The notes under the pieces: generated by a model | Database searches by the model: none | Told to the model about the DNA's origin: nothing | Seen by the model: the letters and a program-made list of their open reading frames with translations, nothing else | NCBI GenBank assembly: GCA_017303975.1 | Contig: JAFLBG010000003.1 | Span: 1 to 64,000, forward strand | From: Bacteroidota bacterium | GTDB taxonomy: Bacteria; Bacteroidota; Bacteroidia; JAFLBG01 | DNA length: 64,000 bases | Direction: 5' to 3' | In this document: one piece after another, positions 12,503 to 42,812 of the stretch | How the letters are laid out: every line of letters starts with the position of its first letter | How positions within the stretch are numbered: the first letter of the stretch is position 1 | Made by a program: the position numbers and the translations under genes

Positions 12503-12526
12503 GTTATAGTTATAGTTATAGTTATG
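12503..12526 (+). repeat. hexanucleotide tandem repeat running into the start codon
   Basis: Three perfect GTTATA units (12503-12520) are followed by a fourth, GTTATG, whose ATG is the start codon of the giant surface protein. Copy-number change would not shift the reading frame but would alter spacing between the start codon and any upstream promoter or ribosome-contact sequence. Confidence 0.85.
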
Positions 12527-15500
12527 GTCAATAAAATCTTTAAATTTTATATTTCTCTTTTCTCGTTTTTTTTGGTGTGGATGAATAGTTACTCTGCCAA
12601 TTATTACTCTGTAATTGCTGCTACAGACCCTAATGCAACAGCAAGCTGGACTCAAAACTCTGATGGCACGGCCGGGGTTCAACCTCCCAATTTTACTACA
12701 GCAGGCGATGTCTTTATTGTACGAAATGGAAGCACGATGACAACTTCCGCAACTTGGGCTGTAACAGGCAGTGTGGAGGTTTCATTTGGAGGGTCGTTGA
12801 CTTATGGTCACGATAGTAGTGTTGGTGGGTATATAAAAAATGAGGGGACTCTCAATACCACATCAGCTAATACAGATTTAGTGGTTACAGGAAACATAAT
12901 ATATAATGGGGGTACTACTGCATTCGGTAATAACAACAATACCATAAGCACCGCTGCTGGTACGTTTAGTGTGAGTGGAACCTGTTCTATAACCGGAGAT
13001 AATAATACCCGTTCTCTCTCTGCTTCTCTAATGGAAGTTACTAGCGGGGCTTCTATTACTTTCAATGGACAAAGCTACACATTTACTAGTACCAATATAA
13101 ATGGCACGGTTAATTTTGCCAGTACAACCGGTACAAAGTCATTAGGAGCTTTAAGTATTAGTTCAACGGGTAGTTTTGTTTCAATAAATGAAACGTTTGC
13201 TGTAACTACAGTTAATTTGACCGGAGCGGACTTTAATACACTGGGAGGAAACACTCCAACCATAAATGCATCAGGAGACGTAACTATTGGAGCGGGAACT
13301 ACCTCCATTGGTCGTTCTACTTGGAACGTTACCGGCAATTTTAATGTAAACGGAACTGCAACTTTCTCGTCCGGAACAGGAACTAAAACAATTGGTGGAA
13401 ATGCAAATATTGCTGCCGGAGGCAATTGGAATTGCACAGCTAGCCCATCATTTAGAATACGAGGAAATTTAGATATAGACGGCACTTTTACTTCAGGAAA
13501 TGGTATTTATTATTTTGATGGTGGTGGTGCCCAACAAATACTGGGGGATCAAGCCAGTGCAACAATTGCTTATATTTCAGTTGATGGCGGAACAACCTTA
13601 ACAAATAATTTAACAACCTTAAATATTAGTACGAGTTTGCAAACATCTGCAGGAGCTGGCACATTTGTAGTAGCTGCCGGAACTACTATTAACTATTCTG
13701 GTGCTGGTACAGGAACCTCCTTAGATGTTACGACCCTAGATACTGATCAAGCGAATTGTACGTTCAATTATGCAAGAGGAAACACCCAAACGGTAAAATC
13801 TACCACTTATCACAATTTAATTTTTTCGGGAGGAGCCTTTGTAAAAACACTTGGCGGTGCTATTACGGTCAACAACAACCTTTGGATTCAAACCGGAACA
13901 CTTGACATGAGCACATTTGATATTGCTGGGAATGCAGTGGGTACATTTACTATGGCTGCTTCTACTGCGCTCAGAGTTGGCAACACAGGTTCTGCTGTTG
14001 CAGTTGCTTTTCCTTCTGGCTTTACCGCAGGGAATATTTCACTAAACGCTTCAAGTACAGTTACGTATCAAGCTAATACAGCTCAAACAGTTAGTTCAGT
14101 CCCCACTTATGGTAATTTAACACTATCTACAAGCGGAAATAAAACTTTGGGTGGGGCCACTACTAATGTTGGTGGAACCCTTACAGTTAGTTTAGGTCCA
14201 ACCTTAGTTATTGGGGCCAATACGCTTAATGTAACTGGTGGTAATTGTGTTAATACTGGGGAAATTACAATTTCCACAGGTCATTTGGATATTGCAGACA
14301 GTTACGATTATACAAGTACAGGCAATTTAACATTTTCCGGAGCAGGTACAATGGAGGTGGGGGATGACTGGACAAATACAGGAACATTTACGCCTAACGT
14401 TTCTACGGTTACATTCAATGGCACGCAAGCCACGCAGCAAGTTGCCTCTGAAACCATGAGTTTTTATAATTTGGTGTTGAATAATTCCACGTCTACGAAT
14501 GATTTTACGGTAGTGGATGGATCTACTGTTTCTATTACCAACAATCTTACTATTACCAGTGGAGAGTTTATTTTTGATAGCACGGATGATTTGGCTGTAA
14601 CCAATGCTACTACCATTAATACAGGTGGAACTCTGCGTGTATCAGGAACTATCACTTACGACTTGGGTGCAACAACACAAATAAATGGAGCAGGACAAAT
14701 CGAAGGATCTAATAATAATCCAATTGTGAATTGTGGAGCATTAACCATGGACGGGACTTCTGCGGTGGGTGGTAATAATGGAAGCAGGACACACGATATT
14801 AATTGCACCTCTCTTACAGTTGCATCTACTGCCACCGGAGCACAAATAGAAGACTGTGATTTTACTGTAACCGGAGGGGGAACGGCAACCATAAATGGAG
14901 TTTTGGACTTTACAGATAATACAGGCACAAAAAGCTTTACAGGGGATGTAATTATAAATGACACCGATGGCTCTTGGTCTTCAAGCGGAAATGAAAGTAT
15001 TTCTATTGCCGGAAATTTAACTATTGACGATTCTTTTTCTTCTGGTACAGGGACATACACTTTTAGTGGTGCTACAAAAAACATAACAACTACCGCAGGT
15101 GTAGCTTCTGCTACTTTCAGTGGACCAGTAGTTTTTTCAGGCACATACACCAATGCAATAGCTACATTAAATTTTGCTGGCACTATTACAACCAATGGTG
15201 GTGGTAGCATTACTATAAATGCCACTACTGTTAACTGTGCCAGTACCATTACAAATAATGGTGATATTGTAATTACAAGTGGCACGTGGAATGCAAATGG
15301 AGGAAACCTTACCAACGATGGAACTATTACAATTGCTACTGGATTGTTAGATATTGCAGATGGGTACGATTATAATGGCACTGCAGGATTGGGTACACTT
15401 ACATTTACCGGAGCAGGAACAATGGAGGTAGGAGATGATTGGAATAATACCGGCACCTTTAATGCGAATGTTTCTACCGTTACATTCAATGGCAATCAAG

Positions 15501-18500
15501 CATCACAAATTGTTGCAGCAGAAGCACAAGCGTTCTATAATTTAGTACTTAATAATACTACCAATACAAATGATTTTACTTTTCCTGATGGTCTAACTAC
15601 TTCAGTTAGTAATAATCTTACTGTTACTAGTGGCGACATAATTTTAAATACCGCTGATGTGCTAACTGTTTCAGGCGCAACTACTTTTGCGACCAACGGA
15701 CATTTATATCTTGACAATACTGCAGGTACCATTGCAAACTTGGGAACTGCAACAACTATGAATGGAGCTTCCTTTATTCATGGTACAGGTAGTAATGGTG
15801 TAATAAACTGTGGCGCATTAACAATGGATGGCACGTCCTATACAACTAGCGACAATGCCAATAGAGCATATGACATTAATTGTACATCTCTTACCATACC
15901 AAGCACTGCAACCGGTGTTATAATTGCTGATTGTGATTTTAGCGTTACCGGTGGGGGGACTGCTACCATTAACGGTATAATTGATTTTAGTGATAATTCG
16001 GGAACAAAAACTTTTTCCGGAGATGTAATTATAAACGATACGGATGGCTCTTGGTCATCCAGTGGTAACGAAAGTTTTTCAATAGGAGGAAGCTTACAGG
16101 TGGACGATTCTTTTTCTTCAGGCACAGGAACTTATACATTTACAGGAGCTACTAAGAATATAACAACCACTGCCGGGGTGGCATCGGTAACATTTGGAGG
16201 AGCTGTGGTGTTTTCAGGTACATATACCAACTCAATCGCAACGTTAAACTTTAGCAGTACACTTACTGTTGATGCAGGAGGTTCTTTGGCCTTGGCTGCG
16301 ACAACTGCAAATGTAAATGGAGGCAATGTTTCTAATGATGGAACTATAACAATTAGTACCGGTGTGCTTGATATTGCAGATGGTTATGATTATACCTCTG
16401 TCGTTGCGGGTAATGGGACTCTAACCTTTTCAGGGGCTGGAAGTATGGAAGTTGGCGATGATTGGCTTAATACCGGAACATTTACCGCAGCTCAATCTAC
16501 AGTTACGTTTAACGGTAATCAAGCTTCACAAACAGTTTCATCAGAGGCTCAAGCATTTTATAATTTGGTGTTAAATAATACAACTTCTACTAACAATTTT
16601 GTTTTTACCAATGCGGTAACAGTAACTGTAAATAACAATTTTACCCTTACCAGTGGTGAAATGCTTTTTGATGGTACCGAAACATTTGATGTGCCTGCCG
16701 CTGCAGGCAACTCAATCATTCAGACAGGTGGTTACATAAATGTGAATGCAAATGACGTTACCATTAATTTTTTAGGCACTGGCGGTTTGGCCATGCAAGG
16801 AGCTGCAAGAATTGGTGACACAGGAAACAATACCGGTGATGTGTTTTGTAAGTTTTTATCTGTAGCTGCTGGAGCTACTGCTCGAATTGGGGATGTAGAT
16901 TTTACCTGTAACAATGATGCCACTATCGATGGTTCTTTAGAGTGGGACGATGCTACCGGAACTAAAACCATAACAGGTAATTTATTGGTAAATGGAACAG
17001 GTACATGGAATAATTCAAGTAACGAAGGATTTACGATTGGCGGAAACGTAACCAACGATGGTGGAACATGGAGTGGCGGAACAACAGCGGGAGCTTACGT
17101 GATGACAGGAACAGCTAAAACAATAAACAGTACAGGCGGAAGTTTACATATGTATTCATTACAAGTAAATGTCTCCGTTCAGAATAATGTAAATTCATTT
17201 ACTATTTATAATGATTTAACCGGAGTGGGCACAATCACTAATGCAGCTTCTAAAACTCTTTATATTGGAGGGGATGCTACAATTACTGGATTAACTGCAA
17301 ATACTGCTAATAATATTGTAAGATACAACGGATCGGCTGCGCAAAGTGTAAAAGGAACAACGTATGTTAATTTAATAATTGAAAATTCAACAACAACATC
17401 GGTGCTTACTGCAGCCGCTAATATTACCTGTAACGGTTATTTAAATGTTACCGGAGGAATTTTGAGGATAGGAAGTGGTATCGCTGTGAGTGTAAATACT
17501 GCTGAAGATGTAACCATTTCTACCGGAGGGACTATTGATTTTGCAACAGACGCAACAGGAACATTCACCTGCGGAGATCTAATTTTAAATGGAGGAACAA
17601 TGGGTGGGAATCAAAATTCTGTAGTAAGTTGCCAAACAATAACCTCCAATGCTGCGGTAAATTCTACTATTGGTCGCTGTACAATGAATAATGCAGGAGC
17701 AACCACTGTAAACGGACCTTTAAATTGGAGTAATGCCAATGGTGTAAAAACATTGAGCGGAGATGTTACCATTGGAGCGACAGGTTCGTGGACAAATACG
17801 GGTAATACTGCTGTTTCTATTGCCGGTACGTTTTCGTTAGTTCCTGCTCAATCTAATTTTGACATGGGTACCGGTAATTTAACTTTTACAGGTGCAGCCA
17901 AAGGTTTTTATGCTGATTTGGGCAGCTTAATATTTACAGACGATTTAGTAATAAGCGGAAGTTATACAAACTATACAAACACACTAACTGTAGGTAGAGA
18001 TGTAAGTGGAGGAGGAAGTCTGGCGAATGATGCGGGTAATCTAATTCAAATAGGAAGAAACATGACTATGGCAAATTTTGATGCCACAAGTTTGGGCGAA
18101 AATACCGTAGAGTTTAATGGAACACAAAATCAAACAATCAATGTAGCCACCCAGTTTAGAACGCTAAAAATAACTAATACAGGCATTGCTGGGGCTAACA
18201 CAGTTAGTTTCTCTGTAGATATGTCTGTTGCTACTTTGTTGGATATACAGTCAGGCGTAATGTATGTTTCTGGAGCAGGAACTAACCTTATTGGTGCTGG
18301 TGCGGTTACGATGGCAGCAGGATCGGAACTTCAGTTTTACACGGGTACAGCTGTGGTTCCTGAAATGACAGGAGTATTTACATTAGCAGCAGGTTCAAAA
18401 ATTACATTCAATAGAAACAATGTTCAAACGATTGAAGGAACTCCCGGTTCTAATAACGCTTCCTACGCAGATGTAGAGTTTGCAAATGCCGCTACAAAAA

Positions 18501-19966
18501 CCTTGAACAATGATTTATCTGTAAGCGGAAACCTTACTATATCCGGAACTGCAGTTTTATCTACTGGCGTAAATAGAAATATTACGGTGGGGGGCAATTG
18601 GACCGTTTCATCTTCCGCAGCAGATCCTTTTGTTCAGAACAGTGGTTTAGTAACCTTTAATGGGGCAGGTACGCAGGTAATTACAGCAGGGACATCCGTT
18701 ACCGAAGAAACATTTTATCAATTTACTCGATCTAACGGAGGTACTACGCAACTTGCTGCAGGAGATAATATGGTTGTAACTAATCAGTTAAATATGACAA
18801 GTGGGAATTTCGATTTGAATGGTCAAACACTGACATTAGGTAGTGGTGCAGGCGCTTCCTTGTCTCGTACTTCCGGAATTTGTTACGGAGGAACATTTTC
18901 AAGGTGGTTACCAACGGGAGCAATCACAAGCACTTCGGGTAGTTTCTATGGTTTATTTCCGGTAGGAACTTCTACAGAATATCGTCCGGTTGAAGTTAGC
19001 AACACAAACGTTTCTGCTGCCGGATTATTAAATGTTCGTCATTATGATGCCGTAACGGTAACAGATGTAAGTTATGTAGATGCTTCCGATGGAGCTACTA
19101 TCGAGCGTATTCATAATATGAATAACGTGATATCTGTTCCTGGTGCTTTGGCAAAAAATGGAGACCCTTCCTCAGGTCTCTCATTGCTTGCCGGAACTTT
19201 TGATGTAGCTATGACGTTTACCGGTTTAAGTAATTGGGGAACAAGCTCGTTAAGTCATATACGTCCTTCTTTGGCAGGTTCTGCAGCGCCTGGCACTTAT
19301 TCTGTTAGTACAGGTTCTGTAACAAGCCCTAAAGTATATAAGTACCAAATTTCCTCTGCAGAGCTTGTGGGTACTTGGCATCCGGGCACAACAGATAAAG
19401 ACCAAACCCCATTGCCTATTGAATTGCTTGAGTTTAGTGCAAAATTAAATGAGCATAAAACGGTAGATGTTTCATGGACTACCGTTACAGAAATAAATAA
19501 CGAATATTTTACGGTTGAAAAATCTGCTGATGGAATTGATTTTGAAGCAGTACAGCAAATTGACGGTGCAGGCAACTCCAGTGAGGTTATATCCTACCAA
19601 ATAGTTGATGAGAACCCATTTAAGGGTATTTCTTATTATAGATTAAAGCAAACAAACTTTGATGGTTCTTATACTTATTCTAAGCCAGTTTCAATCAATA
19701 ATGCAATTAGTGGTGTTGTTTCTATTTATCCTAATCCATCTTTAGATGGTAGCATTACTATAAAAGTATCAGAAAATACAGCGATAGATAAATTAGTAAT
19801 TACTGATATTAGTGGTAAGATTGTTTTTCAAAATAATTCGATTACTTCTGAACAAACTTCCAGTATTTCGAATAGTATTGAGGTGTCCGGATTGGCAGTA
19901 GGAGTTTATCTTGTTTCTGTTGAGCAGCAAGGAAAAGTAATCATTGAAAAGCTAATTGTTAAGTAA
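12524..19966 (+). CDS. giant repetitive T9SS-secreted surface protein
   Basis: A 2480-residue secreted protein. A signal peptide (FKFYISLFSFFLVW, cleaved near residue 26) leads into about 2250 residues rich in Gly, Thr, Ser, Asn and Val with short beta-strand periodicity, like the parallel beta-helix of filamentous adhesins. Large internal repeats of about 340-360 residues are marked by (T/S)MEVGDDW (codons near 14351, 15422 and 16445) and by NCGALTMDGTS (14729 and 15806, a period of 1077 bp). Near the end is a domain with VDVSWTTVTEINNEYFTVEKS and SYYRLKQTNFDG (about 2290-2390), often seen before sorting signals, then a type A T9SS sorting domain (about 2399-2480, VSIYPNPSLDGS). Cysteines are few. 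A surface adhesin or matrix role is inferred; no catalytic motif is visible. Confidence 0.85.
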   Translation: MVNKIFKFYISLFSFFLVWMNSYSANYYSVIAATDPNATASWTQNSDGTAGVQPPNFTTAGDVFIVRNGSTMTTSATWAVTGSVEVSFGGSLTYGHDSSVGGYIKNEGTLNTTSANTDLVVTGNIIYNGGTTAFGNNNNTISTAAGTFSVSGTCSITGDNNTRSLSASLMEVTSGASITFNGQSYTFTSTNINGTVNFASTTGTKSLGALSISSTGSFVSINETFAVTTVNLTGADFNTLGGNTPTINASGDVTIGAGTTSIGRSTWNVTGNFNVNGTATFSSGTGTKTIGGNANIAAGGNWNCTASPSFRIRGNLDIDGTFTSGNGIYYFDGGGAQQILGDQASATIAYISVDGGTTLTNNLTTLNISTSLQTSAGAGTFVVAAGTTINYSGAGTGTSLDVTTLDTDQANCTFNYARGNTQTVKSTTYHNLIFSGGAFVKTLGGAITVNNNLWIQTGTLDMSTFDIAGNAVGTFTMAASTALRVGNTGSAVAVAFPSGFTAGNISLNASSTVTYQANTAQTVSSVPTYGNLTLSTSGNKTLGGATTNVGGTLTVSLGPTLVIGANTLNVTGGNCVNTGEITISTGHLDIADSYDYTSTGNLTFSGAGTMEVGDDWTNTGTFTPNVSTVTFNGTQATQQVASETMSFYNLVLNNSTSTNDFTVVDGSTVSITNNLTITSGEFIFDSTDDLAVTNATTINTGGTLRVSGTITYDLGATTQINGAGQIEGSNNNPIVNCGALTMDGTSAVGGNNGSRTHDINCTSLTVASTATGAQIEDCDFTVTGGGTATINGVLDFTDNTGTKSFTGDVIINDTDGSWSSSGNESISIAGNLTIDDSFSSGTGTYTFSGATKNITTTAGVASATFSGPVVFSGTYTNAIATLNFAGTITTNGGGSITINATTVNCASTITNNGDIVITSGTWNANGGNLTNDGTITIATGLLDIADGYDYNGTAGLGTLTFTGAGTMEVGDDWNNTGTFNANVSTVTFNGNQASQIVAAEAQAFYNLVLNNTTNTNDFTFPDGLTTSVSNNLTVTSGDIILNTADVLTVSGATTFATNGHLYLDNTAGTIANLGTATTMNGASFIHGTGSNGVINCGALTMDGTSYTTSDNANRAYDINCTSLTIPSTATGVIIADCDFSVTGGGTATINGIIDFSDNSGTKTFSGDVIINDTDGSWSSSGNESFSIGGSLQVDDSFSSGTGTYTFTGATKNITTTAGVASVTFGGAVVFSGTYTNSIATLNFSSTLTVDAGGSLALAATTANVNGGNVSNDGTITISTGVLDIADGYDYTSVVAGNGTLTFSGAGSMEVGDDWLNTGTFTAAQSTVTFNGNQASQTVSSEAQAFYNLVLNNTTSTNNFVFTNAVTVTVNNNFTLTSGEMLFDGTETFDVPAAAGNSIIQTGGYINVNANDVTINFLGTGGLAMQGAARIGDTGNNTGDVFCKFLSVAAGATARIGDVDFTCNNDATIDGSLEWDDATGTKTITGNLLVNGTGTWNNSSNEGFTIGGNVTNDGGTWSGGTTAGAYVMTGTAKTINSTGGSLHMYSLQVNVSVQNNVNSFTIYNDLTGVGTITNAASKTLYIGGDATITGLTANTANNIVRYNGSAAQSVKGTTYVNLIIENSTTTSVLTAAANITCNGYLNVTGGILRIGSGIAVSVNTAEDVTISTGGTIDFATDATGTFTCGDLILNGGTMGGNQNSVVSCQTITSNAAVNSTIGRCTMNNAGATTVNGPLNWSNANGVKTLSGDVTIGATGSWTNTGNTAVSIAGTFSLVPAQSNFDMGTGNLTFTGAAKGFYADLGSLIFTDDLVISGSYTNYTNTLTVGRDVSGGGSLANDAGNLIQIGRNMTMANFDATSLGENTVEFNGTQNQTINVATQFRTLKITNTGIAGANTVSFSVDMSVATLLDIQSGVMYVSGAGTNLIGAGAVTMAAGSELQFYTGTAVVPEMTGVFTLAAGSKITFNRNNVQTIEGTPGSNNASYADVEFANAATKTLNNDLSVSGNLTISGTAVLSTGVNRNITVGGNWTVSSSAADPFVQNSGLVTFNGAGTQVITAGTSVTEETFYQFTRSNGGTTQLAAGDNMVVTNQLNMTSGNFDLNGQTLTLGSGAGASLSRTSGICYGGTFSRWLPTGAITSTSGSFYGLFPVGTSTEYRPVEVSNTNVSAAGLLNVRHYDAVTVTDVSYVDASDGATIERIHNMNNVISVPGALAKNGDPSSGLSLLAGTFDVAMTFTGLSNWGTSSLSHIRPSLAGSAAPGTYSVSTGSVTSPKVYKYQISSAELVGTWHPGTTDKDQTPLPIELLEFSAKLNEHKTVDVSWTTVTEINNEYFTVEKSADGIDFEAVQQIDGAGNSSEVISYQIVDENPFKGISYYRLKQTNFDGSYTYSKPVSINNAISGVVSIYPNPSLDGSITIKVSENTAIDKLVITDISGKIVFQNNSITSEQTSSISNSIEVSGLAVGVYLVSVEQQGKVIIEKLIVK
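14351..17050 (+). repeat. about 1-kb internal coding repeats
   Basis: Three long units within the giant protein begin at comparable points near 14351, 15422 and 16445 (spacings 1071 and 1023 bp). The first two share blocks such as INDTDGSWSSSGNES and GATKNITTTAGVAS; the third is more divergent. Third codon positions have drifted, so the duplications are not recent. Confidence 0.8.
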
Positions 19967-33970: not shown

Positions 33971-36076
33971 GTGAAATCTATATTCAAACCAATTTTCATT
34001 TCTCTTTTACTAAGTACAGCTTTTGTCTTTATCTTTTCTTTTAGAGCTCCGACATTCTCTGTCCAAAGAGGTCAATTATCCATGGAACTGATGATGAGCA
34101 CGCTTGGCGCGTCTCACTACCAACCATTATCGGTGGATGATTCGTTATCTGCAAAGGTGTTTAAAATGTATTTGCCAAAACTAGATTACTCGAAAAAAAT
34201 ATTTACGCAAAAGGATATTAAGGAACTGCGTGAGTTTGAATATAGAATAGATAATGACATTAACGACCACACCCATAATTTTTACAATAAAGCAAATGCT
34301 CTTTATGTACAACGAATTAAGCAATGCGAAAATTTCTATAAAGAAATTCTTGCCACACCATTTACTTTTGATGTAGAAGAATCTGTAGTGTTGGATCCGG
34401 ATAAAATTGATTATCCTGTTGATGAAAATCAATTAAAAGAGGAATGGCGCAAGTCGCTAAAATACCAAGTGCTAGCCAGAATTACCGATATGATTGATGC
34501 GCAAGAAAAGGCGAAAGAGAAGAAAGATACCACCTTCAAATCAAAATCTTTTGAAGAAATGGAAAAGGATGCACGGGAGAAAGTACGAAAATCGAACGAA
34601 GAGTTTTTTAAAAGAGTAAATCAATTATCATCATTAGATAGATACAATAATTTGCTATACACAATCTCCTCTATTTATGATCCACATACTGAATTTTTTG
34701 CCCCCAAAGAAAAAAAGAATTTTGACATTGGAATGACCGGTCAGCTTGAAGGTATTGGTGCACAGCTGCAAGAGAAAGATGGGTATATAAAAGTTTCCAA
34801 CGTGGTTCCCGGCAGTGCTTCATGGCGCCAAGGAAGCCTAAAGGCCGGAGATTTGATTTTGAAAGTGGCACAAGGTGCCAACGAGCCTGTTGATGTAGTT
34901 GGAATGCGTTTGGACGATGCTGTTGAATTAATACGCGGGAAAAAAGGTACTGAGGTTCGTTTAACAGTAAAAAAAGCAGACGAGTCAATTACAACTATTC
35001 CAATTGTTAGAGATATTGTGGTGTTAGAGGAAACATATGCGCACTCACTAATTTTAAATAATAACAAATCGAAAATTGGGTATATTAAATTGCCCGGTTT
35101 TTATTCAGATTTTGACGGGAAGGGCGGAAGGCGTTGTGCAGTTGATGTGCGTACGGAGTTAAATAAATTAAAAAAGGAAAATGTACAAGGTGTAATTTTA
35201 GACTTGCGTGATAACGGTGGAGGATCGCTTCAAGATGCAGTAGAGATGGCAGGGTTATTTATTGCATCCGGTCCAATTGTTCAGGTTAAATCAAGATTGT
35301 ATCCTGCGCAAGTATTGAAAGATAATGATTCGCAAGTGGTTTATGATGGCCCTTTAGTAGTTATGGTAAACCAAAATAGTGCATCGGCATCTGAAATTTT
35401 AGCAGCAGCTATTCAAGATTATAAAAGAGGTATAGTTGTTGGTACTAATAGTACATTTGGTAAAGGAACTGTACAGCGCTTTATAAACTTAGATGATTAT
35501 TTATTACCGGCATTCGATTCGTTAAAGCCACTTGGTTCGTTAAAGGTAACATTCCAAAAGTTTTATAGAATTAATGGTGGAGCTACTCAGCTCAGAGGAG
35601 TAGTGCCGGATGTTATTTTGCCCGATCCATATACGTATATCGAAACAGGTGAAAAGGATTTAGATTATCCAATGCCTTGGGATGAAATAAAACCGGCTGA
35701 GTATGAGCTGTGGAATAAAAAAATAGAGTATGAAAAAATAAAAAAGGCAAGTAGTCTTCGTGTAGCAAGTAATTCAAGCTTTACAGCTGTTACAAAAAGA
35801 GCCTTGGAGTTAAAGGAAGTAAAAGAGGATTTGAGTTTACCACTTACCCTTTCTAAAGCAATAGCAGAAAAAAAAGAAAGCAAAGAGAAAAGCAAAAAGT
35901 TTGAAGATGCTACATCAAAAGAAATATCTGGGTTTGAAATAGTTGCCTTGCAAGTAGAAGATGCCCTACTCAAATCGGATACTTTAAAAGGAGCAAAGCA
36001 TAAGGATTTAGTTAAGAATCTACGTAAAGATTTTTATCTGCACGAAACAACAAATATTATCAACGATTTAAAGTAA
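33971..36076 (+). CDS. prc: carboxy-terminal (tail-specific) protease
   Basis: A 701-residue periplasmic or membrane-tethered S41 serine protease of the Prc/Tsp class (E. coli Prc has 682 residues), which trims exported proteins at their C-termini. A signal anchor (FKPIFISLLLSTAFVFIF), a helical N-domain, a PDZ domain (about 235-330, with GIGAQLQEKDGYIKVSNVVPG), the protease core and a Lys-rich helical C-terminal domain are visible. The catalytic Ser is Ser472 or a neighbour in NQNSASASEILAAA, and Lys498 lies in TFGKGTVQ. Translation starts at a GTG at 33971; no better ATG precedes the signal peptide. It ends 21 bp from a convergent gene. Confidence 0.93.
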   Translation: MKSIFKPIFISLLLSTAFVFIFSFRAPTFSVQRGQLSMELMMSTLGASHYQPLSVDDSLSAKVFKMYLPKLDYSKKIFTQKDIKELREFEYRIDNDINDHTHNFYNKANALYVQRIKQCENFYKEILATPFTFDVEESVVLDPDKIDYPVDENQLKEEWRKSLKYQVLARITDMIDAQEKAKEKKDTTFKSKSFEEMEKDAREKVRKSNEEFFKRVNQLSSLDRYNNLLYTISSIYDPHTEFFAPKEKKNFDIGMTGQLEGIGAQLQEKDGYIKVSNVVPGSASWRQGSLKAGDLILKVAQGANEPVDVVGMRLDDAVELIRGKKGTEVRLTVKKADESITTIPIVRDIVVLEETYAHSLILNNNKSKIGYIKLPGFYSDFDGKGGRRCAVDVRTELNKLKKENVQGVILDLRDNGGGSLQDAVEMAGLFIASGPIVQVKSRLYPAQVLKDNDSQVVYDGPLVVMVNQNSASASEILAAAIQDYKRGIVVGTNSTFGKGTVQRFINLDDYLLPAFDSLKPLGSLKVTFQKFYRINGGATQLRGVVPDVILPDPYTYIETGEKDLDYPMPWDEIKPAEYELWNKKIEYEKIKKASSLRVASNSSFTAVTKRALELKEVKEDLSLPLTLSKAIAEKKESKEKSKKFEDATSKEISGFEIVALQVEDALLKSDTLKGAKHKDLVKNLRKDFYLHETTNIINDLK

Positions 36077-36097
36077 TCGAGTTTTACGTTGGGCTTA

Positions 36098-37924
36098 TTA
36101 TTTGATAATAGATACGTGCCCAATGTAATCTTTTATTTTATTTCCGGGATCTCTCAATTCAAGTGTCCAAACATAAACATCTTGTTGAGCAAGCTTTTCG
36201 CCACTATTAGCATGCCCATCCCAATTTATAGTAAATTCTGTGTCTTGAATTGTTAAGTTCTCGTCACGGTAAATCAAATCTCCCCATCTATCAAACACTC
36301 TAAATGTATAGGCTTTCGCACCAATTACATATATAGTAAATTTGTCGTTGACAAGATCTCCATTTGGAGTTAGTGCATTAGGAGCATAAACTACAAATGC
36401 CGATTTAATATATATACGATCGTAAATAGTATCCCTGCATCCCTTATCGGTAGTGACAATTTGTGTAATATATACACTGTCGGGTTTTGATAAGTCTAGC
36501 CAAACTATTGGGTTGGCGTTTGTGTCAACTAGCGCAGTAGATTCGTAGTTAATGGTATATTCCCAATGTGATGAATTTTGAGAATTGTCTTTTATGTGTA
36601 GTTGCGATTCCAATAAATTCATTTCATTGGAATTGGTGCTGAATCCTGCCACAGCATCAGGATATACCTCAATATAATTTTCTTTTACAGATGTTGTTGT
36701 GCAACCGTTGGTATCTATGTAACTATATTTTACATCAAAAATACCCGATGTAGTGTAGCAGTGATTGCCTTCGCATGTTTGGGTGGAGTCTCCATCTCCA
36801 AAATTCCATTTGCACGAAAATGGAAATGTTGTGGCGGTATAACTAAATGAAACGCATAAAGGTCCGCAACCTCTTAAAGTATCTGCACTAATTTGTGCTT
36901 CCGGTTTTGGAAATAATGTTACGGTAACAAAATCTGGCTGCATGCAAGTTCCTGCTCCAGGATCTACTTTGTATATGGTAGGGCTGTCTGTTGGAGTTAT
37001 ACTAAATTGTGGGTTGGTTGAAATATAACCCGGAGTTCCAATTTTACTCCAATTGTAAATGTTTTGTGGGTTTCCGGTTGCAGCAAGTAATACACTTTTT
37101 CCCGGACAAATGCTCGTATCATTATTTGCTGTAATTACTGGTGGATTGGGGCATGTAAATCCTTGATACTCGAACATCACACCGGAGTCCCAACCACCAT
37201 CACCGGCATCGCTTATGGTAAGAATCATTTTGTAGGTGCTACAGGGTACTACATTTAGTTTGGCTTCTAAAGGAACAGTAAATCCATCGTACACAATAGA
37301 GGATGGGGTTGGTGCAGTATTGTCAACATAAAGGGAGCTGTTGGATCCTCCATTAATTGTATTAATAGTAACAGGACTATTGCTGCCTGGTGTCAACGCA
37401 ATGTTCTCTTTTACATAATTGCCGCCCGATGGGTTGGCGCCTGAAACAAAAAAAGCGAATGCATCATTGTAGCCCGAGTTTACATATTCCGGGTATTCTT
37501 CAGAGCCATAAACATATCTAATTTTTAAACTATCACAGTAAGGTGTTATGTCAAACTCTATTTTACACCCATCAAATACACTATTCCCCGCAATGCCTCC
37601 AAGGTCGGGGTCTCCGGCAGATCCGTTTCCTGTACTGGTTTGATAGCTGCTATTTTGGTCTAAATCGGAAATAACTCCTGTAGTGAGTATTAATCCGGAA
37701 TCAAGCCCCAAATTACTTGTGGTTGCATTGGAAAATAGTCCCATACTACTGCTCGGGCAGTTTACTACAATATTGCTTATTGTAACACCGTTTCCGGCAA
37801 GTGCATTTTTAATTTTATTGGTATCTACCGTATTGGTAGTTTGAATGTTGTTTTGTGAGAATAAGAGTAACTGCAAACAACATAAAAAAAGGAGAGCCCA
37901 AATTTTTTTGTTGAAGCAACTCAT
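36098..37924 (-). CDS. choice-of-anchor-L/PKD protein with gliding-type (T9SS type B) C-terminus
   Basis: A 608-residue exported protein from ATG 37924 (signal peptide IWALLFLCCLQLLLFS); an upstream in-frame ATG at 37957 abuts the previous stop. Domains in order: a choice-of-anchor-L domain (about 25-265, with YVYGSEEYPEYVNSGYNDAF and DAGDGGWDSGVMFEY), an Ig-like segment, a PKD-like domain (about 330-425, CKWNFGDGDSTQT), and a type B T9SS sorting domain (about 510-608, APNALTPNGDLVNDKF, VFDRWGDLIY, INWDGHANSG). Type B domains occur in SprB-like cell-surface adhesins. It is the last gene of a likely three-gene operon; surface binding is inferred. Confidence 0.86.
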   Translation of the reverse strand: MSCFNKKIWALLFLCCLQLLLFSQNNIQTTNTVDTNKIKNALAGNGVTISNIVVNCPSSSMGLFSNATTSNLGLDSGLILTTGVISDLDQNSSYQTSTGNGSAGDPDLGGIAGNSVFDGCKIEFDITPYCDSLKIRYVYGSEEYPEYVNSGYNDAFAFFVSGANPSGGNYVKENIALTPGSNSPVTINTINGGSNSSLYVDNTAPTPSSIVYDGFTVPLEAKLNVVPCSTYKMILTISDAGDGGWDSGVMFEYQGFTCPNPPVITANNDTSICPGKSVLLAATGNPQNIYNWSKIGTPGYISTNPQFSITPTDSPTIYKVDPGAGTCMQPDFVTVTLFPKPEAQISADTLRGCGPLCVSFSYTATTFPFSCKWNFGDGDSTQTCEGNHCYTTSGIFDVKYSYIDTNGCTTTSVKENYIEVYPDAVAGFSTNSNEMNLLESQLHIKDNSQNSSHWEYTINYESTALVDTNANPIVWLDLSKPDSVYITQIVTTDKGCRDTIYDRIYIKSAFVVYAPNALTPNGDLVNDKFTIYVIGAKAYTFRVFDRWGDLIYRDENLTIQDTEFTINWDGHANSGEKLAQQDVYVWTLELRDPGNKIKDYIGHVSIIK

Positions 37925-37957
37925 CTCAAAAATTAAATCTAGTATATATTTTAGCAA

Positions 37958-38707
37958 CTAGTTTATAACAAATGCATAAACACTACCCGTAAATACATTG
38001 CCTCCACAACCACCATTTCTGTCGTAATGCACCTCATAAATATTGGAACCTAAAGCAGGAGATGCATCTAGCCAGCTAAAGGTATAGTAGCCATCTTCTC
38101 TTCGTTCTATAGCCTTTAAATAGGTGCCATTTCTATAAATAGCAAACTCACAACCTCCGTATGTATTTGCCGAATTATTTTCAACGGTAATTAGTAAAAA
38201 CACTTTTTGAGTCGCTCCAACTGTAGTGCTAACAGATCCCATAAGAGTAGATGCAGTTGGTGTAAATGGGCTTGTTGCATATACATTTACTTGGCTATAC
38301 CCAGTAAGTGCTAATGAAATTCCCGGAGGGCCTTGAGGACCCGCTGGGCCTGTAGCTCCTGCTGCACCTGCAGGTCCTTGTGGACCAGTTGGACCTTGCG
38401 GCCCTGTTGGCCCAGAGCTAGGGCAAAGAGAAATCCAAGAGGTACTGCTAGTTTGGTAATGATAAAAACATCCCACCGTTGTGTCATAAACCAAAAGACC
38501 ATCTGCAGGGTTGAGTATGGCTACACGTTGAATGGTTGTTAATCTAGGAACTAGCATTCCTTTGTTGGTTGCTACAACATCTAATACCGATGATGCATCT
38601 GGAGCGCTTGTCCCGATACCAACATTATTAGTCTGTGAGAATGTATTCGTATTTGCAAAAATGCAAGCTATTGAAAGAACACTAATTAGTTTGCTTAAGT
38701 AATTCAT
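37958..38707 (-). CDS. secreted collagen-like repeat protein
   Basis: A 249-residue secreted protein with a signal peptide (LSKLISVLSIACIFANTNTF). The N-terminal part (about 25-90, with VGIGTSAPDASSVLDV and KGMLVPRLTTIQRVAI) resembles bases of tail-fibre-like surface proteins. A run of about ten Gly-x-y triplets follows (about 101-131, GPTGPQGPTGPQGPAG), predicted to form a collagen triple helix. A C-terminal beta-rich head (about 140-249) ends in a Cys/Gly-rich loop. No T9SS sorting domain is present, so its export route is unclear. It sits 9 bp after the FG-GAP gene in the same direction. Confidence 0.82.
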   Translation of the reverse strand: MNYLSKLISVLSIACIFANTNTFSQTNNVGIGTSAPDASSVLDVVATNKGMLVPRLTTIQRVAILNPADGLLVYDTTVGCFYHYQTSSTSWISLCPSSGPTGPQGPTGPQGPAGAAGATGPAGPQGPPGISLALTGYSQVNVYATSPFTPTASTLMGSVSTTVGATQKVFLLITVENNSANTYGGCEFAIYRNGTYLKAIERREDGYYTFSWLDASPALGSNIYEVHYDRNGGCGGNVFTGSVYAFVIN

Positions 38708-38716
38708 AAACGTATT

Positions 38717-41113
38717 TTATTGTTTAATAATTTTCGTGAATAGGCTGTGTTGTGTTGATTTAATACTTAAAAAATAAATGCCATCTGAAAAATTTGTTAA
38801 ATCCAGAAGAGTTTTTCTGTCCGTATTAATAAGGGAGATTACTCGTTTTCCTGTTAAATCAAAAAGAGAAATATCTGCATTTTCTCCGAACGGATTATTT
38901 ATATGCAAGATTCCTGATGTTGGATTAGGGTAGAATGTAAATTGATCTGTGGATAAATTATTGTCGATGCCGGTACAAGGGGATACAAATACGTTTACCG
39001 TAGATGTGTTAGTGCATAAATTGGCATCAATTCCTATCACTGTATAAGTAGTCGTAGTCGTAGGGTTTATATTTACAAATTGACCGCTTTGATTGATAGG
39101 AAGCCAATTAAAAATACTAGCTCCATTTGCAGACAAAATAACTAAGGCTCCTGAACATGTTGTATAGCTTGATGCTGCGGAAGTTATAGTTGGCAGGGCA
39201 TTTACAGCTACAGAAATAGCGGTATCTGCAGTACATCCATTTGCATCGGTTCCGGTAACAGTATATGTTTGCGAAGTGCTTGGCTGTATTTGAATACTAT
39301 TTGTATTTGCTCCAGTACTCCACGAATAGTTGGTTGTTCCACTTGCAGTTGCAGAAAAATTTTTCCCTTGGCATATTGTATTTGCAGAAGCTTGAACAGT
39401 TATTGATGGACTTGGGTTTACTGTTAATGAAAAATAAGTTGTATCATTTACACACTGATTATCCGTGGCAACAATATAAATTGTGGATGTTCCATACTGA
39501 CCAGAATTTGGGGTGATGGAAATGCTTCTATTCGTTGAGCTGCCACCGAAAACAATGCCTGTATCGGGCACTACAGTTGTGTTAGAGGAATACCCTGTAA
39601 GTGTTACGGAGTTGGCGTCCTCATCAGTAATTGAAAAAGAAATATTATTTATGGCGCCACTTACACATACAGATTGATTAATTATGGCAGAGGCAATAGG
39701 CTTGGTGTTTGACGTAATTAAGTAGATAGCTCCGCTTCCGGATAATGTATTTATTTCTAAAGAGTCTTCATCTTCTAATGGAACACCAATAAAACCATCA
39801 AGACTATCTATTGCAACTGCAAAGCCAAAATTGTCGCTCGTGTTTCTGCTACAAGGTGTTAGTTTGTTAAGTTGCTCCCAAACGCCTAGGCTAGAAGTGC
39901 TGTAGGTGTATGCAGCCCCGGCATTGGAAAGTGAATTTAGCTCCTTTTTGTCGCTATCATTGTTTAATGCACCTACTAATGCAAGTTTAGAGTTAATTGA
40001 TACTGAGCTGCCAAAATTATCGTTGGCAGTACGCGCTACTGCTGTTACTTTTTGTAACTGTAACCATGCTCCAGAAATGGTGCTTTTTTTGAAAATATAG
40101 GCCGCTCCTGCATTGGTAATTGTATTGGCATCTGTTGCGTCTTCATCCTCGTTTGGCGCTCCAATAATTGCATTTGAATAATGGATGTCAATAGATTTTC
40201 CAAAATTATCATTGGCTGCATATTGTGTTGTTCTATAAATTGTTTGAACGAAGTTCCATGTGTTGCTTGAATATTGCCACCCAAACACAGTACCGGCATT
40301 ACTATAGGTGTTTACTGGAGCTATATCATAATTAGGGGCTCCAATTAAGATGTGATTCCCTTCAATAGCAACCGCTTCTCCATATCGCCCTCCGGCTTGG
40401 TATATATTCCAATCCATCCCTAAACGTGCAGTTATAACCCATGTATTAGAAGTGTTTCGGTTATACACAAATGCACTTCCCATGTTTAAGTAATTGCTGC
40501 CTTGGTCTGTACCTGTGTAGTAATAGGTAGATGCGGGAGCTCCAACAACAACATTTTTCCCGGAAATAGAAACACTATATCCAAACCCTTCTGATGTTTG
40601 TGGGTTGGTACAACCAGACCATCCAAAGCAAGATGTTCCTGTTCTATCAGGAATTAAAGTTGTTTTCTGTGTCCATGTTCCGCTGCCTTGTCTTTCAAAA
40701 ATCCAAACAGCACCTGCATCAGGAACTGTAAGTGTAGGTCCGGTATAAACAACTTGTGCAAGATGAGAACCAATTACAGCGTAGGTTCCGGAGATATCTA
40801 CACTCCACCCAAATTGATCTAAAGAATAGCGGGAGGAAGGGACTATTTTTTGTTTTTGAATCCAAATTCCGTTTGAATTTTTTTCAAATATATATGCAGC
40901 GCCTGCATCAGTTAATGTGTTTGCTCCGTTTGCATCTGTATCGTCTTGATACGCACCAACAATAGCATAATTTCCATCGATAGCAACCGAATACCCAAAG
41001 CCGCTTCCGCTTGTTCTATCCGATGCAACTTTTTTTATCAGTCCATCCCAATTTTGAGAGATTGAAATGTGACTTAGAAGTATATAAACACATAGGGTAA
41101 TTATTTTCTTCAT
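38717..41113 (-). CDS. FG-GAP repeat surface protein with T9SS sorting domain
   Basis: A 798-residue exported protein. A signal peptide (KKIITLCVYILLSHISIS) precedes about seven FG-GAP-like repeats (about 30-430, recurring (F/Y)G-x-(S/A)-V(A/S)I and L-(T/S)-(D/N)AGAAY(I/T)(F/Y)), suggesting an integrin-alpha-like beta propeller. Two Ig/PKD-like domains follow (about 440-720, with a Trp/Gly motif in YSWSTGANTNSIQI), then a type A T9SS sorting domain (about 725-798, FTFYPNPTSGILHI ... GIYFLSIKS). First gene of the operon with the collagen-like and type B genes. Calcium-binding acidic loops (e.g. DDTDANG) are visible in the repeats. Confidence 0.87.
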   Translation of the reverse strand: MKKIITLCVYILLSHISISQNWDGLIKKVASDRTSGSGFGYSVAIDGNYAIVGAYQDDTDANGANTLTDAGAAYIFEKNSNGIWIQKQKIVPSSRYSLDQFGWSVDISGTYAVIGSHLAQVVYTGPTLTVPDAGAVWIFERQGSGTWTQKTTLIPDRTGTSCFGWSGCTNPQTSEGFGYSVSISGKNVVVGAPASTYYYTGTDQGSNYLNMGSAFVYNRNTSNTWVITARLGMDWNIYQAGGRYGEAVAIEGNHILIGAPNYDIAPVNTYSNAGTVFGWQYSSNTWNFVQTIYRTTQYAANDNFGKSIDIHYSNAIIGAPNEDEDATDANTITNAGAAYIFKKSTISGAWLQLQKVTAVARTANDNFGSSVSINSKLALVGALNNDSDKKELNSLSNAGAAYTYSTSSLGVWEQLNKLTPCSRNTSDNFGFAVAIDSLDGFIGVPLEDEDSLEINTLSGSGAIYLITSNTKPIASAIINQSVCVSGAINNISFSITDEDANSVTLTGYSSNTTVVPDTGIVFGGSSTNRSISITPNSGQYGTSTIYIVATDNQCVNDTTYFSLTVNPSPSITVQASANTICQGKNFSATASGTTNYSWSTGANTNSIQIQPSTSQTYTVTGTDANGCTADTAISVAVNALPTITSAASSYTTCSGALVILSANGASIFNWLPINQSGQFVNINPTTTTTYTVIGIDANLCTNTSTVNVFVSPCTGIDNNLSTDQFTFYPNPTSGILHINNPFGENADISLFDLTGKRVISLINTDRKTLLDLTNFSDGIYFLSIKSTQHSLFTKIIKQ

Positions 41114-41146
41114 ACAAGGATAGTTGTTAATGCTATTCTAAATTTA

Positions 41147-41154
41147 CAAAACTA
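41147..41154 (-). promoter_or_regulatory. -7 element for the FG-GAP operon
   Basis: On the minus strand this reads TAGTTTTG, matching TAnnTTTG. It would start transcription near 41140, about 27 nt before the FG-GAP start codon. No clear -33 TTTG is present. Confidence 0.4.
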
Positions 41155-41189
41155 GCGGCAATAAAAAAAGTTGTGCGTGTTGGCTTATT

Positions 41190-41372
41190 TTACAAGCCAA
41201 GTGTGTGTTGCGCATTACTAATTATATTGTAATTACGGGAGTGCATTCTCTTTTTTGCTTGAGAGAAATTGTTTTGTTCTGTCGAGTTCTTTTTGGAGAG
41301 TAGAGTTTTATTGGAAAATAATTCACGTAACACCAATAATGGATTGCTCCAGTTGTTTTTAATTGCTTTCAT
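41190..41372 (-). CDS. possible 60-residue basic protein
   Basis: An ATG-initiated frame for a 60-residue, Lys/Asn-rich protein without signal peptide or recognised domain. It lies in the 427-bp gap between serS and the FG-GAP gene. Composition (Asn, Lys, Ser) is what unselected AT-rich DNA can give, and its stop is separated from the FG-GAP start by the putative promoter. Listed with low confidence; it could equally be leader sequence. Confidence 0.25.
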   Translation of the reverse strand: MKAIKNNWSNPLLVLRELFSNKTLLSKKNSTEQNNFSQAKKRMHSRNYNIISNAQHTLGL

Positions 41373-41488
41373 AATAAGTTAAGTTAAAAATGGGTTATGT
41401 AAATATAATCTAAAATGAGCTACAAGTCAATAGTTTAGAATGGCTTTCTTTAAAAACAATAGTTTTGAGAGTATTTTGTTGAAATTTC

Positions 41489-41517
41489 TTGTTAACTCTT
41501 TCAAATTCTTAACTTTA
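41489..41517 (+). promoter_or_regulatory. weak promoter for serS
   Basis: TAACTTTA (41510-41517) is one base from TAnnTTTG. TTG at 41489-41491 is 18 bp upstream. The predicted transcript start near 41524 leaves a leader of about 17 nt. Confidence 0.4.
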
Positions 41518-41540
41518 GCAATTATTACAATCAATACATT

Positions 41541-42812
41541 ATGTTACAAATAAACTACTTGCGAGATAAAAAGGACGAGGTGCTTGCTCGCTTAAAAATT
41601 AAAAATTTTAAAGAACTTGATTTAATTGATAAGGCTATTGAGGTAGATTCCGATAGAAGAAAAATTCAGCAGGAGCTAGATGCTATTTTAAATGAATCGA
41701 ATACAATAGCAAAGCAAGTGGGCGATTTATTTAAAGCAGGTAAAAAAGCGGAGGCAGACGATTTAAAAAATAAAAGTGTTGCTTTAAAGGAAACTGCAAA
41801 AACGCTGGAAGAGCAGCAACGAAATGTTGAATTGGAGCTTCAGTCTATTTTAGTTAAAATTCCTAATGTGCCTAGCAGTAAAGTTCCTGCGGGAGTAAAG
41901 CCGGAAGACAACGAAAAGGTTGCTGAGCACGGAACAATTCCTGTATTACCCGAAACAGCACAACCTCATTGGGAGTTGGCCGCAAAATATAATATTATTG
42001 ATTTTGAATTAGGCGTAAAGCTTACCGGTGCGGGGTTTCCTGTGTATAAGGGTAAAGGGGCTCGATTGCAACGCGCGCTAATTAATTACTTTTTAGATAA
42101 AGCCACTGCTGCAGGTTATATGGAAATACAGCCTCCGATAATGGTAAATGCCGATTCTGGTTTTGCTACAGGGCAGTTGCCGGATAAAGAAGGGCAAATG
42201 TATTTTGCAAGTGAAGATGGTTTATATCTTATTCCTACCGCTGAAGTGCCAATTACTAATATTTATAGAGATGTAATTTTAAAAGCAGAAGATTTGCCTA
42301 TTAAAAATTGTGGATATACACCTTGTTTTAGACGAGAGGCCGGAAGTTATGGGAAAGACGTGCGTGGGCTAAATCGGTTACATCAATTTGATAAGGTTGA
42401 AATAGTTCAAATTGCGCATCCTTCTAAGTCATACGAAACATTGGAAGATATGGTGCAGTTTGTTGCGGGTCTTTTGAAAGAACTCGAATTGCCTTATAGA
42501 ATAATGAAATTGTGTGGTGGTGATATGAGTTTTAATTCGGCTCTAACATACGATTTTGAGGTGTTTTCTGCAGCTCAAAAAAGATGGTTAGAAGTGAGCT
42601 CTGTTTCTAATTTTGAAGCGTTCCAAAGCAATAGATTGAAATTGCGTTTTAGAGAAGGTGCTGAAAAGCCTCAGTTGGCGCATACTTTGAATGGTAGCGC
42701 ATTGGCATTGCCTAGAATTGTAGCATCGTTATTAGAAAATAACCAATCCGATAGGGGGATTGCTATTCCTAAGGCATTGGCCGCCTACACAGGATTCGAT
42801 TATATAGTATAG
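41541..42812 (+). CDS. serS: seryl-tRNA synthetase
   Basis: This enzyme charges tRNA-Ser. The 423-residue class II synthetase has the N-terminal tRNA-binding coiled coil (about 1-110), motif 2 (CFRREAGSYGKDVRGLNRLH), the serine-pocket/motif region VSSVSNFEAFQSNR and motif 3 (LNGSALALPRIVASLLENNQ). Length matches the family (E. coli 430). It heads an apparent operon with a lipoprotein and a TPR gene 9 bp downstream. Confidence 0.97.
   Translation: MLQINYLRDKKDEVLARLKIKNFKELDLIDKAIEVDSDRRKIQQELDAILNESNTIAKQVGDLFKAGKKAEADDLKNKSVALKETAKTLEEQQRNVELELQSILVKIPNVPSSKVPAGVKPEDNEKVAEHGTIPVLPETAQPHWELAAKYNIIDFELGVKLTGAGFPVYKGKGARLQRALINYFLDKATAAGYMEIQPPIMVNADSGFATGQLPDKEGQMYFASEDGLYLIPTAEVPITNIYRDVILKAEDLPIKNCGYTPCFRREAGSYGKDVRGLNRLHQFDKVEIVQIAHPSKSYETLEDMVQFVAGLLKELELPYRIMKLCGGDMSFNSALTYDFEVFSAAQKRWLEVSSVSNFEAFQSNRLKLRFREGAEKPQLAHTLNGSALALPRIVASLLENNQSDRGIAIPKALAAYTGFDYIV

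Follow-up and report, generated by a model that had tools for sequence, protein, structure and literature searches.

Cargo proteins of the type IX secretion system (T9SS) are described as carrying a C-terminal signal (passages of PMC12618676), and type B substrates of this system require PorP/SprF shuttles, which are often encoded next to them; orphans exist (passages of PMC12618676 and PMC9143113). The nearest published parallel to the locus described here is the TANFOR group of polymorphic toxins of Bacteroidetes, which have a signal peptide and neighborhoods enriched in T9SS-tagged genes; the authors hypothesize that TANFOR proteins are T9SS substrates (passages of PMC7073777). Here, we analyzed a 64,000-nucleotide stretch of DNA from a Bacteroidota bacterium of the class Bacteroidia (assembly GCA_017303975.1, contig JAFLBG010000003.1, positions 1 to 64,000; from here on, the window), in which three genes lie close together on one strand (Table 1). 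Gene 1 encodes an FG-GAP protein that carries a type A T9SS signal, gene 2 a collagen-like protein, and gene 3 a choice-of-anchor L (choice-L)/PKD protein with a type B T9SS signal. The N-terminal domain (N-domain) of the gene 2 product belongs to a family that we named VGIGT after its motif. We found that genes for VGIGT proteins, which lack the T9SS tag, are recurrently linked to T9SS-tagged neighbors. We lean toward the interpretation that fiber and T9SS partner form a recurrent module, in which the fiber is displayed with its tagged neighbor and of which the trio in the window is one local variant.

The VGIGT family shares the signal peptide and the neighborhoods enriched in T9SS-tagged genes with the TANFOR proteins. 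The latter have a toxin architecture with an N-terminal TIGR02542 domain, whereas VGIGT proteins are fiber-like, with a putative trimerization domain, collagen, and a head. TIGR02542 had no match in the gene 2 product (NCBIfam, E of 0.1), the other family members having been scanned over their last 130 residues only. Type B substrates with PorP/SprF shuttles are likewise genetically linked to a dedicated neighbor, with noncovalent anchoring by the partner (passages of PMC12618676 and PMC9143113); in those systems the neighbor is a barrel, whereas in the trio it is a fiber protein. SprB-type gliding adhesins resemble gene 3 in being type B-tagged proteins with PKD/Ig repeats, but gene 3 has no adjoining SprF gene, and a Pfam domain search gave no SprB match in any of the three window proteins. 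In BclA of the Bacillus exosporium and Lcl of Legionella, a short collagen rod likewise bears a globular head, C1q/TNF-like or of another kind, as the gene 2 product probably does, whereas gene 2 in addition has an N-domain resembling those of phage tail fibers and T9SS genes alongside. An exosporium leader and an LPXTG motif are features of bacterial collagen-like adhesins; neither was seen in the gene 2 product, and its NCBIfam Lcl/Scl matches, which fall far short of the cutoff, are confined to the Gly-rich stretch. Phage tail fibers and tailspikes (the Mtd N-domain, TSP3 and TSP4 of CBA120, and streptococcal phage hyaluronidase) give fold matches to the N-domain and include sequence relatives, but gene 2 is a cellular gene with a signal peptide, and no virion genes lie nearby in the window. 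In the open-access literature (subscription papers were outside the search), we found no description of the fiber family or of its pairing with tagged proteins. Two leads were set aside, namely, pep25/lbp26 of F. collinsii, which in the portions of the source available are other genes, and PMC9478572, which in its available portions mentions a tail fiber in the reference list alone.

VGIGT proteins generally lack the T9SS tag, and their genes often adjoin tagged ones

The VGIGT N-domain is present in 247 of the 395 sampled genomes of the class, and the fiber family is widespread in Bacteroidota. In 80 named loci, the domain precedes collagen repeats, S74-like tails, or other heads. Scanning the last 130 residues with curated NCBIfam models, we found a T9SS signal in 0 of the 134 complete members with an N-terminal VGIGT domain, a set from which truncated proteins, proteins of <150 residues, and N-domains starting after residue 110 were left out. 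A collagen-rich minus-strand open reading frame (ORF) of 289 residues at locus L134 was flagged by our in-script type A model and may be spurious. Two pairs of a type B gene and a VGIGT-collagen gene were also seen at L081 (CP034120.1, titled Glaciecola amylolytica), which is labeled as a gammaproteobacterium; the label or a transfer are candidate causes.

For the analysis of neighbors, we considered genes on the same strand at a gap of ≤150 bp and left out two duplicates of the second set (L206 and L222) as well as the short proteins and late-starting N-domains mentioned above. With T9SS models built in-script, 44 of 95 neighbors of VGIGT genes were tagged compared to 15 of 193 neighbors of other signal-peptide genes at the same loci. 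Because these models were derived from the very loci tested, the curated NCBIfam scan served as a check. It identified 26/95 type B and 25/95 type A neighbors, counts that may include proteins matched by both kinds of model, versus 5/95 and 3/95, respectively, for control neighbors drawn at random from the 193. Counted per gene with the in-script models, a tagged neighbor was present for 27/98 VGIGT genes, 8/152 signal-peptide genes, and 5/324 others in the first sample (Fisher P of 1e-6 versus signal-peptide genes) and for 18/50, 7/55, and 3/142, respectively, in the second (P of 0.006), which consists of the best-scoring hit per genome and is not random. The excess over signal-peptide controls amounts to ~4- to 7-fold in odds in the two samples and is larger by the curated models. 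These statistics ignore kinship, and the samples share descent: seven Flavobacteriaceae partners form one type A family, whose genes mostly end just 1 or 2 bp ahead of their VGIGT gene, and these pairs (L093, L094, L096, L098, L099, L100, and L117) probably represent one ancestral pair.

Within the genome to which the window belongs, four of the five VGIGT genes adjoin a T9SS-tagged gene. In addition to gene 2, these are a gene on contig C2 that precedes a type B gene by 24 bp; one on C30 that precedes a type A gene by 1 bp; and one on C26 that follows a type A gene at a distance of 51 bp. The gene on C28 has no tagged neighbor.

A partner family, found independently, frequently adjoins VGIGT genes

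Thirteen type B partners of VGIGT genes, including the partner on C2, share a common beta-rich body of ~350 residues that has no Pfam model. A reverse search starting from this body found the family in 87 of 198 genomes, and in 40 regions, one per genome, a VGIGT gene adjoins 13/42 body proteins versus 7/295 other genes. At four further loci (L270, L271, L273, and L283), a gene of ~153 residues lies between the body protein and the VGIGT gene. Because the adjoining fraction is 13/42 and a conserved subgroup of body proteins is without a VGIGT gene, the pairing is frequent but optional. The window itself encodes at 12524-19966 a type A protein of 2,480 residues that has the partner-body domain and no VGIGT neighbor. 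Also seen were proteins of ~500 residues that start with DLFxLIKSLTxxEKRxF and belong to no Pfam family. The window's genome has seven copies; several adjoin T9SS type B genes, and one (L059:10922-12439, on C2) is divergent from the VGIGT pair on that contig. They are possibly regulators.

We found no second FG-GAP/collagen/choice-L triplet in 80 VGIGT loci, 40 VGIGT regions, 20 choice-L regions, and 40 partner-body regions. The choice-L domain as such is common (246/395 genomes), and a VGIGT-collagen gene lies beside a choice-L/type B sequence in two of the 20 choice-L regions. One is L185, in which a choice-L/type B gene of 1,415 residues is followed after 32 bp by a VGIGT-collagen gene of 328 residues and, after a further 10 bp, by a 93-residue ORF and a second VGIGT-collagen gene; the choice-L partner there contains SprB repeats. 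L185 was chosen because choice-L and VGIGT hits met in it, and among the other 19 choice-L regions, one (L190) was positive, with choice-L and the type B end in two overlapping ORFs beside the VGIGT-collagen gene. Outside the window's genome, the only FG-GAP protein near VGIGT genes among the loci examined is at L118, 441 and 192 bp from two VGIGT neighbors. The idea that the three genes make up one conserved appendage is not supported by these observations; what recurs is the arrangement of fiber and tagged partner, and gene 1 is probably a local addition to it. The prediction of a multipart surface appendage is thus partly supported, in the form of a recurrent fiber-plus-T9SS-partner module, while the exact trio is seemingly a local variant, and an assembly of propeller head, rod, and adhesin in one object is speculation. 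The related proposal that anchoring of the collagen-like protein comes from a partner gains support from the recurrent link between untagged collagen/tail fiber-like proteins and T9SS-tagged neighbors, including those at L185 and L190.

A small exported protein may be a third component. Within 30 bp downstream of 14 of 65 VGIGT genes with collagen, there is an ORF of 82 to 130 residues whose product has a signal peptide and, as its body, a low-complexity sequence in which charged/polar residues abound. The corresponding number for VGIGT genes without collagen is 2/107, both different in kind and one itself a VGIGT ORF (P of 2.7e-5; the count was made after the pattern was seen). Examples are L185:6557-6835, which has no Pfam match, L075:11215-11511, and those at 12 other loci, and the bodies look disordered. 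The trio has no such ORF after the collagen gene.

The gene 2 product is a candidate modular trimer

The gene 2 product is a candidate for a modular trimer comprising a signal peptide, the VGIGT N-domain, a collagen stretch, and a C1q/BclA-like head, and is probably a three-stranded collagen-like fiber. The probable signal peptide ends in FSQ, lacks a lipobox Cys at its cleavage site, and is modeled as a helix at residues 2-18. In agreement with the original prediction, neither a type A nor a type B T9SS C-terminal signal was found in Pfam and NCBIfam scans.

The N-domain spans ~70 residues with the pattern NNVGIGT..LDV..P R.T..QR.AI..PA.GLLVYDT..C....W.SLC. Modeled alone, it reached a predicted local distance difference test (pLDDT) score of 91.9. 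In the PDB, its fold matches are for the most part trimeric tailspike/tail fiber proteins of phages and the trimerization domains of human collagen XV/XVIII, among them TSP3 (Z of 4.8, root mean square deviation [rmsd] of 1.4, 41 aligned residues), collagen XV (Z of 4.1, rmsd of 2.6, 45 aligned), and Mtd (Z of 4.1, rmsd of 2.4, 46 aligned). The fold matches have a Z of 3.8 to 4.8 over 41 to 60 residues, low values for a small domain; because low scores are expected at <50 aligned residues, these matches are a lead rather than proof. At the sequence level, a search with a composed consensus as the query identified 57 records in cyanobacterial and other phages at E of 6e-16 to 1e-5, one of them a gene located between a tail fiber gene and a tail fiber assembly gene. 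The N-domain profile gave one chance match only (E of 0.089) against sequences of solved structures, and among Pfam models, none describes the domain, with DUF2793 matching weakly in 6/54 members. As a lead, the tail fiber-like base ascribed to this protein is well founded because the N-domain has both fold matches and sequence relatives in phages.

The collagen stretch consists of 11 perfect, uninterrupted Gly-X-Y triplets; the longest run in 2,000 shuffles of the same protein was 5. The Pfam Collagen model matches residues 99-129 with 23.9 bits, slightly below the cutoff of 27.2. The C-terminal domain of 114 residues aligns over 99 to 111 residues to BclA, ExsFA, F-BclA, Cbln1 (cerebellin), C1q, and Pgp3 at Z of 7.9 to 8.9. 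The top rows of the fold search are BcsB domains (Z of 9.6), and a Z near 8 can reflect a common arrangement; together with the position after collagen, the alignments suggest a C1q/TNF-type head. By sequence, this domain has no convincing relatives (5/395 genomes at E of 0.01, its own genome included).

The trio is probably an operon for surface proteins

Gene 1 encodes a type A T9SS substrate as judged by its TIGR04183/PF18962 C-terminal domain (51 bits versus a cutoff of 23). As read from the sequence, its product has a signal peptide, which is followed by seven FG-GAP_2 stretches (E of 4.9e-57), probably forming a beta-propeller, and an Ig/PKD-like linker. In gene 3, the choice-L domain scores 227.5 bits (cutoff of 27) and is accompanied by PKD_4, and the type B assignment is firm by Pfam CHU_C (52.5 bits versus a cutoff of 27), with NCBIfam TIGR04131 just under its threshold (34.4 versus 35). 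The predicted identities of both genes are confirmed by these matches. SprA is present in the window's genome, as are 13 PorP/SprF genes, none of which is adjacent to gene 3 or elsewhere on the window's contig (C3); the gene 3 type B protein would, therefore, be an orphan.

Table 1. Features of the three-gene locus and its upstream region
Feature	Residues	Positions	Strand	Basis
Gene 1, FG-GAP/type A, 798 aa		38717..41113	-	ORF list and domain search
Gene 1 FG-GAP repeat region	about 29-470	39704..41029	-	Domain search; end point estimated from paralogue alignments
Gene 1 type A T9SS signal, Por_Secre_tail/TIGR04183	728-798	38720..38932	-	Domain search
Gene 2, collagen-like fiber protein, 249 aa, without T9SS C-terminal signal		37958..38707	-	ORF list and domain search
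Gene 2 Sec signal peptide (probable)	1-25	38633..38707	-	Sequence; helix in model
Gene 2 VGIGT N-domain, trimerization-type fold, Cys80 and Cys95	28-95	38423..38626	-	Profile, model, phage homologues
Gene 2 collagen stretch, 11 G-X-Y triplets	99-131	38315..38413	-	Domain search and repeat count
Gene 2 C1q/TNF/BclA-like jelly-roll head	136-249	37961..38302	-	Structure model and fold search
Gene 3, choice-L/Ig_7/PKD/type B, 608 aa		36098..37924	-	ORF list and domain search
Gene 3 choice-L domain	37-255	37160..37816	-	NCBIfam search
Gene 3 PKD_4 domain	355-418	36671..36862	-	Domain search
Gene 3 CHU_C/type B T9SS signal	514-600	36125..36385	-	Domain search
TAGTTTTG, TAnnTTTG-type -7-like match ~34 bp upstream of gene 1, without spaced TTG, weak		41147..41154	-	Motif scan

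The ORFs, strand, and coordinates of the three genes are as originally described, as are the gaps of 9 bp between genes 1 and 2 (38708-38716) and 33 bp between genes 2 and 3 (37925-37957). The latter assumes that gene 3 starts at the ATG at 37924; with an in-frame TTG at 37957 as the start, the gap would be 0 bp. No terminator-like sites were reported in either gap. The trio is an isolated unit because the genes on either side, one encoding a tail-specific protease of the S41 type (33971-36076) and the other being serS (41541-42812), are both on the opposite strand. Judged by gene spacing, co-transcription is likely, and the trio is probably an operon for surface proteins. Upstream of 41113, promoter-like matches are weak only and no more numerous than expected by chance; TAnnTTTG, which we take to be a -7-like promoter element, has six matches on the minus strand of 36000-41540 compared to ~2.4 expected in shuffles.

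Display with a tagged neighbor and alternative explanations

In the mechanism that we propose, the VGIGT domain directly after the signal peptide would nucleate a homotrimer, the short collagen rod (~9 nm if fully helical) would space this base from the head, and the C1q/BclA-like head would bind a ligand. The fiber would be displayed on the surface with a tagged neighbor, for which the choice-L/PKD protein with its type B signal is the likeliest candidate in the trio. Fiber and neighbor would be exported together, or the fiber would dock onto the neighbor afterwards. Several observations weigh against this interpretation. No tagged neighbor lies within 150 bp of 71/98 and 32/50 VGIGT genes in the two samples, and tagged genes cluster near exported genes generally, since the controls are above zero. 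Conversely, 29/42 partner-body proteins stand without a VGIGT gene by the strict rule, as does the one in the same genome at C16:40642-41748, a contig on which there is no VGIGT gene. Partner bodies vary (choice-L, the beta-rich body family, and Flavobacteriaceae type A proteins), and a specific interface is therefore not evident. Gene order varies as well, the fiber gene preceding the type B gene in the window and following it in L185 and L190. A protein of 1,771 residues at L234, outside the set of 134, has an internal VGIGT domain and its own type A signal and is the only such protein seen. Finally, the AlphaFold2 model of the whole fiber as a single chain is only moderate (pLDDT of 73 and predicted template modeling score [pTM] of 0.43).

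The variety of partners and the many VGIGT genes without a close tagged neighbor would also be expected if surface protein genes were simply clustered or co-regulated, with no contact or dependence between fiber and tagged proteins, and other signal-peptide genes do adjoin tagged genes (8/152 and 7/55). We give this explanation roughly one chance in four, because the excess for VGIGT genes is severalfold in both samples and genes of the partner family adjoin VGIGT genes far more often than other genes do. Somewhat less probable is that the fiber is self-sufficient, its N-domain or folded trimer being recognized by an undescribed outer membrane route or anchor and the tagged neighbors being dispensable for display. 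Heads, rods, and neighbors vary, and the only part conserved is the N-domain, which most members carry soon after the signal peptide; moreover, the domain is missing from 8 of the 10 genomes in which SprA was not detected. The domain is present in 2/10 such genomes versus 245/385 with SprA (P of 0.007), but this co-occurrence is a weak test because SprA is nearly universal (385/395), and the two exceptions include a genome that is 56% complete. No dedicated conserved neighbor was found that would serve such a route.

An outer membrane export signal is not recognizable in the fiber protein, as would be expected of a periplasmic collagen-like spacer or envelope component that never crosses the outer membrane; the C1q/BclA-like head and tail fiber-like base suggest ligand binding outside, however, and together with the strong link to secreted partners make a nonsurface location improbable. 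The phage homologues and tailspike-like fold of the N-domain could also indicate that the fiber gene is part of a defective phage or tailocin-like element. We rejected this explanation as very improbable given the signal peptide, the position flanked by housekeeping genes and by two T9SS genes, and the spread of the family across 247/395 genomes of the class.

Our preferred reading, display of the fiber with a tagged neighbor, has a broader and more tentative extension. VGIGT fibers could be a second class of surface proteins that depend on the T9SS but carry no tag themselves, i.e., phage tail fiber-derived trimers that leave the cell by riding on a tagged neighbor, so that one tag serves two products, often together with a small disordered exported protein encoded right after collagen members; we regard this as conceivable but unlikely. 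Nontagged T9SS cargo has been proposed for TANFOR (passages of PMC7073777), and we found no demonstration of it. Widespread untagged fibers, often encoded beside tagged proteins, offer a direct test case for rider export or partner docking, and the module supplies a hypothesis for many uncharacterized genes. If this is true, Bacteroidota use phage fiber trimerization modules to build collagen-rod adhesins.

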